From assembly GCA_947624835.1 (NCBI GenBank), contig CANQLX010000010.1, forward strand, positions 1-40,280: a DNA stretch of 40,280 bases. The letters are read 5' to 3'. How positions within the stretch are numbered: position 1 is the first letter of the stretch; every line of letters begins with the position of its first letter. Positions 25,098-26,812 of this stretch are shown one piece after another. The translations under genes and the position numbers were made by a program. The DNA is from an uncultured Clostridia bacterium (GTDB taxonomy: Bacteria; Bacillota; Clostridia; Oscillospirales; Acutalibacteraceae). The notes beneath the pieces were generated by a model. That model saw only the letters and a program-made list of their open reading frames with translations. It had not been told where the DNA came from and ran no database searches.

Positions 25098-25123
25098 GTG
25101 AAAGCCTCTTAAGAGGCTTTCCG
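25098..25123 (+). terminator. Hairpin after dacF
   Basis: AAAGCCTCTTAAGAGGCTTT (25101-25120) is a perfect 20-bp palindrome, about 100 bases after the dacF stop. It has no long T-run beyond the stem's own TTT, so it may act bidirectionally or as a weak terminator. Confidence 0.55.
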
Positions 25124-25315
25124 TAGAAAGAAATTTATGTGGATAAAAATGACAAGTAAAACTTATCAATAATCTGACATTAGAGAATAATTAAATAAAA
25201 TGAAAAACTTATAGCTTGTCTATCTAATGAATTTATGGTCGGGTCATAAAACAAATGACCTGAGTAAAGTAGTTGTGAATTAACAGTGTCGGCATGGCAC
25301 TTAAAAATTAAAAAA
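25124..25315. other. AT-rich spacer with a GGTCGGGTCAT hairpin
   Basis: The spacer holds no gene. At 25238-25260, GGTCGGGTCAT is followed by a short AT loop and ATGACC. This is a hairpin that shares the GGTCGGG core with the structures at 738-780, 1268-1300 and 37011-37046. I see no other recognisable element. Confidence 0.4.
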
Positions 25316-25380
25316 AACCTATTGACATATAGGTTTATAGGTGTTATAATTAATGCATATAAAACATATAGGTGTTATAA
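25316..25380 (+). promoter_or_regulatory. metY promoter with overlapping operator-like repeats
   Basis: A perfect promoter is present: TTGACA (25322-25327), 17 bases, TATAAT (25345-25350). An inverted repeat AACCTAT-N6-ATAGGTT (25316-25335) covers the -35. The 14-mer TATAGGTGTTATAA occurs exactly at 25336-25349, overlapping the -10, and again at 25367-25380, just past the inferred start of transcription. The two copies are 31 bp apart, about three helical turns, and a third, imperfect copy starts at 25328. The layout is that of a tightly repressed sulfur-metabolism promoter; an Rrf2/CymR-type repressor is a guess. Confidence 0.75.
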
Positions 25381-25402
25381 GACATTTAGGGGGCATTGTT
25401 TT

Positions 25403-25468
25403 ATGAAAATTCTGTTGAAAGAAATAAGACACAACTTTAGGAACGGACGAATGTGCTGTCGTGTCTGA
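25403..25468 (+). CDS. Upstream leader peptide with tandem Cys codons, candidate cysteine attenuator
   Basis: A 21-residue ORF begins ATG at 25403, nine bases after AGGGGG, and ends with NGRMCCRV and TGA at 25468. It lies inside the metY transcript, downstream of the promoter and 51 bases before metY. The tandem codons TGC-TGT are at 25454-25459, four codons before the stop. The reading frame overlaps a potential stem pairing AGACAC (25428-25433) with GTGTCT (25461-25466). A ribosome stalling at Cys codons when cysteine is short would change this pairing. That mechanism is inferred; the ORF, its ribosome-binding site and the Cys pair are directly visible. Confidence 0.65.
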   Translation: MKILLKEIRHNFRNGRMCCRV

Positions 25469-25519
25469 TATAAAATCTTAATGTAAATGTAATTTTTTAT
25501 TAAAGAGAGGTATTTTATT

Positions 25520-26812
25520 ATGAGTAAAGATAATTATAGGTTTGAAACACTCCAACTTCATGTAGGGCAGGAACAGCCTGACCCCGCAACCGATTCAAGG
25601 GCAGTTCCGATTTATGCTACAACATCTTATGTTTTCCGTAATTCTCAGCACGCTGCTGACCGATTCGGACTTAGGGATGCCGGAAATATCTACGGAAGAC
25701 TTACAAATTCCACACAGGATGTATTTGAAAAGAGGATTGCCGCACTTGAGGGTGGTGTTGCCGGTCTTGCGGTTGCATCAGGTGCTGCCGCTATTACCTA
25801 TACAATACAGGCACTTGCACAGGCAGGAGATCACATTGTTGCACAGAAGACTATATACGGAGGAAGCTATAACCTTCTCGCACATACTCTTTCACAGTTC
25901 GGCATAAAGACTACATTTGTTGATGCACATAATCTTAAAGAGCTTGAAGGTGCTATTCAGGATAATACAAAGGCTATTTATATAGAAACTTTAGGAAATC
26001 CTAACAGTGATATTCCGGATATTGATGCTATCTCCGAAATTGCACATAAACACGGACTTCCGGTTGTTGTTGACAATACCTTCGGTACACCGTATCTTAT
26101 CCGTCCCATTGAGCATGGTGCGGACATTGTGGTACACTCGGCTACAAAGTTTATTGGCGGTCATGGTACGACCCTCGGCGGCGTTATTGTTGACAGCGGC
26201 AAATTTGACTGGAAAGCAAGCGGAAAATATGCTCCTATTGCCGAGCCTAATCCGAGCTATCACGGAATTTCTTTTGCCGATGCAGTCGGTCCTGCAGCTT
26301 TTGTAACGTACATCCGTGCTATTCTCCTCAGGGATGAGGGTGCTGCAATATCTCCCTTTGCTGCTTTCCTTCTCCTTCAGGGAACGGAAACACTTTCGCT
26401 CAGACTTGAACGTCATGCGGAGAATACAAAGAAGGTTATTGAGTATCTTTCAAACAGTCCGTATGTTGAAAAAGTTAATCATCCTTCCCTGCCCGATCAC
26501 CCCGATCATGAACTTTACGAAAGATATTTCCCAAACGGCGGTGCAAGCATATTTACATTTGAAATTAAGGGCGGACAGACTGAGGCACATAAATTTATTG
26601 ATAGTCTTGAAATATTCTCGTTGCTTGCGAATGTAGCTGATGTGAAATCCCTCGTTATACATCCGGCAACAACAACACATTCTCAACTCACAGATGAGGA
26701 GCTTGAGGATCAGGGTATAAAGCAGAATACAATACGTCTTTCAATCGGTACAGAGCATATAGACGATATTATTGAGGATTTGGATCAGGCATTCAAAAAG
26801 GTTTTTGGTTGA
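25520..26812 (+). CDS. metY: O-acetylhomoserine sulfhydrylase (MetY/Met17), PLP enzyme
   Basis: MetY makes homocysteine (or cysteine, from O-acetylserine) by direct sulfhydrylation. The 430 residues fit the Cys/Met-metabolism PLP family and begin [32 protein letters not shown]. The Tyr/Arg of IYGRLTNST and the PLP lysine Lys210 in [16 protein letters not shown] are present. The long insertion after the PLP motif ([23 protein letters not shown]) is typical of MetY rather than MetB or MetC. AGAGAGG precedes the ATG. It is a single gene followed by a strong terminator, regulated by the promoter and leader described. Confidence 0.96.

Follow-up and report, generated by a model that had tools for sequence, protein, structure and literature searches.

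The window, a stretch of 40,280 nucleotides from an uncultured Clostridia bacterium, contains the gene metY preceded by a promoter, an inverted repeat and a short ORF encoding the peptide MKILLKEIRHNFRNGRMCCRV (Table 1). The metY product scored 640 bits against TIGR01326 (cutoff, 495) and 463 bits against PF01053. A first-pass annotation of this DNA had described a perfect promoter, a 21-codon ORF with its own AGGGGG ribosome-binding site, tandem Cys codons within that ORF and a gap of 51 bases between its stop codon and the metY start; our re-examination gave the promoter a score of 12/12 and confirmed each of these features, together with all coordinates. The ORF is a short reading frame with a Shine-Dalgarno (SD) sequence between promoter and gene, as in classical attenuators, and its conservation suggests that it is translated. 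Apart from its start codon, it contains one Met codon, along with two Cys codons. A comparison of the leader peptide with Pfam and NCBIfam matched 0 families.

Table 1. Features of the metY upstream region in the window.
Feature	Position	Strand	Basis
Inverted repeat AAACCTAT-TGACAT-ATAGGTTT over the -35 element, candidate operator	25315..25336	.	Sequence
Promoter TTGACA-17-TATAAT	25322..25350	+	12/12 score
Leader ribosome-binding site AGGGGG	25388..25393	+	Sequence
Leader ORF MKILLKEIRHNFRNGRMCCRV, 21 codons, stop included (start ATG at 25403; stop TGA at 25466-25468)	25403..25468	+	Sequence, relatives
Conserved peptide segment RHNFRNG	25427..25447	+	Codon table, 68 leaders
Codon pair CGA-AUG (Arg16-Met17), proposed pause/sensing site	25448..25453	+	Leader comparison
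Tandem Cys codons TGC-TGT (codons 18-19), common but not universal	25454..25459	+	Leader comparison
metY Shine-Dalgarno sequence AAGAGAGG	25503..25510	+	Sequence
metY, O-acetylhomoserine (O-acetylserine) sulfhydrylase, presumed target	25520..26812	+	TIGR01326, PF01053

The inverted repeat over the -35 element is a candidate operator of a repressor, presumably of the Rrf2/CymR type. Inspection by eye found CCTATTGACAnnnTAGG-like repeats before the leaders of six other loci (L110, L117, L125, L156, L157 and L167; loci are designated by L numbers) and an Rrf2-like gene 3' of metY in L170 and 3' of metY-cysK in L139. A further inverted repeat, the perfect GAAAGCCTCTTAAGAGGCTTTC, lies at 25100-25121 behind a D-Ala-D-Ala carboxypeptidase gene and has no T run.

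Conservation and distribution of the leader ORF

A tblastn search of 60 genomes (the window's own and its relatives) gave matches in 18 genomes at E<=1. Inspection by eye classified 17 of the 25 matches as short ORFs located before metY or sulfur-transport genes and 8 as false. The 17 ORFs end in ...NFRxGRM or a near variant, and one of them, the paralogue L002, comes from the same genome as the window. Conservation in relatives, on which the first-pass annotation had made its proposal depend, was therefore found. Profile searching across the order (295 genomes) produced matches in 145 genomes at E<=0.5, many of them false; the best 29 further loci were leaders, and 40 weaker loci that were fetched comprised 23 leaders and 17 non-leaders, as judged by eye. 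The same kind of search in 398 genomes drawn from the phylum gave matches in 10 genomes at E<=0.02, the window's own included, which is about the chance level. We regard it as certain for practical purposes that the ORF is a real leader peptide conserved before sulfur genes.

L002, on contig C119, encodes RHNWRNGRMC with a longer tail and stands before the gene for a sulfate ABC transporter binding protein; similar leaders occur in L020, L021 and L057. Among the matches listed, 68 named loci had a start that could be located, and metY was the target in 59 of them. The sulfate-binding protein target scored above its NCBIfam cutoff, and the MetQ/NlpA-like, MetN-like and SsuA-like targets scored above the Pfam cutoffs and below the NCBIfam cutoffs. 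A permease (L047) was another target, and a URO-D family protein (L157) was exceptional. In the 132 loci that were measured, the ATG of the Arg-Met (RM) codons lies 49-185 nt from the start of the gene.

Within the window's order, at least 14 families contributed matches with CGA in the codon-neutral search described below, and relatives were found in other orders as well; many gut and rumen Clostridia carry the leader. The record labels among the matches listed (at least 80 loci) were mostly Clostridia, Oscillospiraceae, Ruminococcaceae and Ruminococcus, and also included Erysipelatoclostridium sp. An173, Emergencia sp. 1XD21-10 and a Treponema metagenome-assembled genome (MAG). The records of Ruminococcus sp. 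zg-924 (L152) and Emergencia sp. 1XD21-10 (L185) bear no MAG label. Among the loci listed, L176 looks like a chance match, and L169 was not recovered by script. On the Treponema MAG contig JAFZYR010000045.1 (L157), the leader and the same operator-like promoter precede the URO-D family gene, which reflects either transfer between phyla or a mis-binned contig. A script that searched six genomes for short SD-started ORFs with CGAATGTG picked up two ORFs with a length of 3-4 residues and four leaders, each of them in front of metY or a MetQ-like gene; since it missed a known leader of genome G204, it does not amount to a census.

A constant codon pair in the leaders

Codon usage was tabulated for 69 ORFs fitting [NHY][FYW]Rx[GQNS]RM, from which L083 was dropped as false (it has an AGG codon and no sulfur gene behind it), leaving 68 leaders. 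This set was obtained by a protein-level search, and hence the Arg codon was unselected. The last Arg codon was CGA in 68/68 leaders, and the next codon was ATG in 68/68. The Asn, Phe/Tyr/Trp, Arg and Gly residues of the preceding segment were also kept, with one Tyr for Asn and one Gln for Gly as the exceptions. Synonymous codons varied within this segment: Arg13 used all six codons, and Gly15 was encoded by GGA (36), GGG (19), GGT (8) and GGC (4). CGA accounts for 5 of the 176 Arg codons in eight genes of the window. When 394 genomes of the order were searched with a pattern neutral to the Arg codon, 73 matches were obtained in 66 genomes, and 69 of the 73 had CGA; the four others (AGG, CGG, AGC and CGG) were ORFs without a recognised sulfur gene behind them. 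The reversed pattern, used as a control in the same search, gave 4 matches.

We also surveyed the regions upstream of metY. For the order, we took 39 genomes that lack the pattern, 37 of them with metY-like genes, and kept the 20 closest loci; the metY-like matches considered there had about 50% identity or more. At the wider ranks, 79 genomes sampled from the class and 101 from the phylum each yielded 29 loci besides the window's. In all, 75 metY loci were open to analysis, over at most 330 nt of upstream sequence. CGAATG was present upstream of metY in 27 of the 75 loci, and in 25 of these 27 it lay in the frame of an SD-started ORF, versus a mean of 3.7 loci (maximum, 14), 17% in frame, for the 179 other permutations of the same bases. 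ATG preceded by another Arg codon was found in 3 (CGC), 4 (CGT), 2 (CGG), 4 (AGA) and 4 (AGG) of the 75 loci, and in the 48 metY loci that lack CGAATG, ATGTG was never preceded by an Arg codon. We judged 23 of the 75 loci to carry leaders (9/19 in the order, 12/29 in the class and 2/27 in the phylum); L256, L257, L274 and L275 carry CGAATG but are doubtful or chance occurrences. In 15 of the 23 leaders, a different peptide precedes CGA-AUG (for example, IRNERMCFRC, QRRYCRM-stop and NNRRMCCC, and further YNERM, GTDRM and YIFRM). By these comparisons, the least variable part of the leader is the in-frame CGA-AUG, not the Cys codons. Neither this codon pair nor the inverted repeat over the -35 element figured in the first-pass annotation. 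In L258, L259 and L260, metY has no leader and lies directly behind an ORF that resembles a NifU/IscU scaffold gene by eye.

In principle, the constant hexamer could instead belong to an RNA motif, GGNCGAAUGUG, to which a protein or another RNA binds, with the ORF as an incidental feature. CGAATG is indeed constant at the nucleotide level, and TG comes next in 59 of the 68 leaders. However, the upstream codons shift synonymously with the amino acids kept, the hexamer is in frame in 25 of 27 metY loci compared with 17% for permuted strings, CGAATGTGH is not enriched genome-wide (43 vs 59 in the control) and no conserved fold was found for the leader RNA, all of which make such a motif very improbable.

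Two further candidates were rejected. The heptamer GGACGAA resembles the anticodon loop of tRNA-Arg; A-to-I editing by TadA was dismissed because just 36 of the 68 leaders use GGA for the Gly that precedes CGA. An elemental pause of RNA polymerase was likewise rejected: GG...TGYG fits the pause consensus in part, but the TG after ATG is absent in 9 of 68 leaders.

Cys codons and variable tails

The first-pass annotation had centred on the tandem Cys codons. In the 68 leaders, the position after Met holds Cys in 36, a stop codon in 21, Tyr in 4, Trp, Pro and Leu in 2 each and Arg in 1; tandem Cys codons are therefore not a constant element. Sensing of sulfur amino acids in general fared better and is made likely by the Met/Cys-rich second leaders that stand ahead of terminators in sister loci, described below. 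Cys makes up 239 of 866 residues (27.6%) in the first 12 tail codons of 161 leaders from all sources, many of which were chosen by a DNA pattern holding CGAATGTG. Since CGA-AUG is constant, the sensed step more likely lies at or just after Met17, and the Cys codons appear to be a common addition.

A classical attenuator of the kind proposed by the first-pass annotation, in which ribosomes short of cysteine would halt at the tandem Cys codons and so alter the RNA structure, would agree with the enrichment of Cys after Met and with the sulfur targets. We nevertheless consider it distinctly unlikely, for 32 of the 68 leaders have no Cys directly after Met, the window has no terminator and the proposed downstream stem arm is present in only one of five leaders with the upstream arm, that of the window.

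The tails themselves repeat the usage of the core. An Arg codon that precedes Cys or Met in a tail is CGA in 22 of 33 cases, compared with 6 of 65 elsewhere (Fisher p 6e-9, uncorrected for descent), and thus the tails seem to follow a rule of CGA before a sulfur codon. Tails range from nothing to over 20 residues and vary in sequence, and some ORFs overlap the target start. These properties, together with the different upstream peptide of 15 leaders, argue against a role of the ORF product as a small protein with a function other than regulation in cis; such a role would fit the conserved peptide, but we consider it extremely improbable.

The conserved peptide could instead be an arrest peptide, its nascent NFRxGRM, within the exit tunnel, sensing a metabolite such as methionine, SAM, cysteine or sulfide and halting the ribosome with Met in the P site, much as TnaC senses tryptophan. 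The strong peptide conservation just before Met within the order agrees with this explanation, as does the occurrence of a stop codon next after Met in 21 of 68 leaders with a varied residue at that position otherwise. We consider it unlikely, however, as 15 leaders keep CGA-AUG behind another peptide and a pure peptide sensor leaves the fixed CGA codon unexplained.

RNA structure and pairing with the target SD sequence

The first-pass annotation had pointed to a stem between AGACAC (25427-25432) and GTGTCT (25461-25466). The complementarity exists, but it is not conserved: AGACAC is present in 5 of 132 leaders, and GTGTCT accompanies it only in the window's leader, so the stem was rejected. 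The predicted fold of the window's leader was no better than those of shuffled sequences (z +0.36), and no intrinsic terminator was found between the leader and metY at the window locus. A script detected terminator-like hairpins after the leader in 3 of 132 loci; a terminator would often not fit into the distance between the RM ATG and the gene.

Pairing of each leader with the SD sequence of its own gene was compared with its pairing with the SD sequences of other loci; these tests left out L042, L047, L060, L084 and another 10 named loci in which no start was located. In the first 64 loci, own-SD pairing was better in segments from -30 to +29 around the ATG. The same segments gave p values of 0.0009 to 0.05 in 110 non-redundant loci, in which the other segments gave 0.2 or more; support from the 50 newer loci by themselves was weak, p reaching 0.02 at best within this region and 0.03 also at -42..-19 and at +60..+83. 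Within -30..+29, a region picked after the earlier pairing results, own pairing ranked in the top 2% for 15 of 109 loci (2.2 expected; p 6e-9), compared with 4 of 109 (p 0.18) within -90..-31; these p values, like the others reported here, are too small because the loci are related by descent. A ribosome held at CGA-AUG would occupy the region from -30 to +29.

In an ensemble calculation on 63 loci, from which L048 was left out (no SD sequence found), a mask placed at CGA-AUG raised SD accessibility by more than 0.1 in 46% of the loci. This test did not single out CGA-AUG, for masks centred at -24 and +30 raised mean SD accessibility by 0.13 and a mask at 0 by 0.12. At the window locus, predicted SD accessibility changed from 0.44 to 0.45 with a ribosome at CGA-AUG, and neither strong pairing between the SD sequence and the leader nor clear SD sequestration was seen. 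An effect through the downstream RNA or translation, as the first-pass annotation had envisaged, therefore draws support from SD pairing in other loci but not from the window's own locus.

Proposed mechanism

We consider it moderately probable that the leader senses sulfur amino acids through pausing of the ribosome at or after CGA-AUG and acts in cis on metY. The leader would tie expression of metY to the available charged Met-tRNA and Cys-tRNA. A ribosome would translate the leader as far as CGA-AUG, where CGA would act as an Arg codon that is read slowly and the conserved NFRNG segment might cause additional slowing; the next step, at AUG and then at the Cys codons if present, would become rate-limiting. 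CGA is poorly read in the Salmonella his leader (PMC4046918), and recognition of the A-site codon is dependent on the P-site and E-site codons and tRNAs (PMC11805395). With Met or Cys in short supply, the ribosome would pause at CGA-AUG and cover about 15 bases on each side. In a subset of relatives, the covered bases would otherwise pair with the SD sequence of the gene, and pausing would then permit translation of metY. What the analysis shows directly is the conservation of the leader, the constancy of the codon pair, the target genes and, for part of the collection, an excess of pairing with the SD sequence. We infer the pause itself, its trigger (low Met or Cys), its sign (a pause turning expression on) and a similar mode of action in the window. 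The candidate operator at the promoter probably provides a further layer of control through a repressor.

A more specific version, which we put forward tentatively, is that the codon pair itself is the sensor: with CGA in the P site, decoding of the next sulfur codon would depend to an unusual degree on the level of charged tRNA. In these Clostridia, CGA is presumably read by an inosine tRNA. This inosine-wobble CGA would be followed by a sulfur codon that is either AUG or, in the CGA-UGY repeats of the tails, UGY, and a single codon would take the place of the codon run of classical attenuators. The arrangement would be used in many clostridial sulfur leaders, some of them stacked behind a Met/Cys-rich terminator attenuator.

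Relation to known regulatory systems

Cys-rich leaders in actinobacteria (the cys operons of Mycobacterium and Propionibacterium acnes and cbs of Bifidobacterium) likewise stand before sulfur genes. The clostridial leaders differ from them in that CGA-AUG is constant and Cys optional, in the phylum that carries them and in their mostly metY targets. The mycobacterial leader ORFs are reportedly leaderless, going by the title of the primary paper, whereas the clostridial leaders have an SD sequence. In the excerpted text of PMC1262725, the Mycobacterium leader is a short ORF with Cys codons near the stop and no conserved terminator hairpin, and the part of PMC13236596 that deals with M. smegmatis cites translation attenuation for its Cys leader.

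In ermC-type translational attenuation, the leader sequesters the SD sequence of the gene until a stalled ribosome frees it, a scheme that fits the subset of loci with SD pairing. The present targets are sulfur genes rather than antibiotic resistance, however, and SD sequestration was not seen in the window. The principle that a stalled ribosome frees a sequestered SD sequence is also stated in the excerpt of PMC13236596.

Leader translation probably senses amino-acid supply here, as it does in the his and trp attenuators, and the second leaders described below resemble their layout; in contrast to those attenuators, the window's leader has no terminator, and an antiterminator is unsupported in the second leaders. 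In plants, control by a nascent peptide acts through the MTO1 region of Arabidopsis CGS1, an enzyme of the same PLP family as MetY; there the peptide lies within the main ORF.

T-boxes and S-box (SAM) riboswitches are the usual RNA control of Met and Cys genes in Firmicutes. A scan of 39 source sequences with Rfam models, S-box and T-box included, gave 4 matches, none of them at a leader; L182 has a T-box about 2 kb away. The clostridial leaders that were scanned thus differ from S-box and T-box systems. Leader-peptide control has a precedent in Firmicutes in the His leaders of bacilli, which have His codons and hisS/hisZ targets instead and were found by a search for premature terminators (excerpt of PMC2965389). 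As of 2010, according to the same excerpt, ermC had been the one leader-peptide system known from bacteria other than Proteobacteria and Actinobacteria (PMC2965389).

The author of the first-pass annotation knew of no such leader before metY in this group, and we found no earlier report in the literature searched, nor any mention of the peptide motif there; the leaders appear to represent a variant of leader-peptide control that had not been reported in that literature. A mode of control considered rare in Firmicutes (PMC2965389) is here widespread in gut and rumen Clostridia. The genes behind the leaders serve the synthesis of methionine and cysteine and, judged by homology, the uptake of sulfate, methionine and sulfonates. 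With its synonymous codon fixed before the sensed codon and its peptide drifting, the family would be a natural experiment on the effects of codon pairs on decoding.

Second leaders and terminator-associated variants

Of 133 leaders with upstream sequence of 330 nt, 19 are preceded by a second SD-started ORF rich in Met and Cys; the opposite strand gave none. The carriers include L162, L041, L182, L180 and L185, and the second ORF stops 115-154 nt upstream of the RM codons; that of L162, MKQRTNIVTTMIMEMCMWTCRMCMTFCAH..., has 11 Met/Cys residues after the start. A terminator hairpin lies behind the second leader in 17 of the 19 according to one script and in 19 of 19 with looser settings. An antiterminator between an ORF-internal YTCTCC and the GGGAGA of the terminator, noted by eye, was unsupported by a duplex test against swapped arms. 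Because a Met/Cys-loaded leader followed by a terminator is the standard attenuator layout, these loci probably respond to a shortage of Met or Cys, and by association the CGA-AUG leader probably does likewise.

The leaders of L049, L071 and L084 have longer tails (SR...AGR) with CCCGG codons that can pair with an arm of a downstream terminator, recognised by eye in L084; they may represent a transcriptional form, possibly of opposite sign. In L324, a Met/Cys-rich leader with a terminator-like hairpin stands alone before metY.
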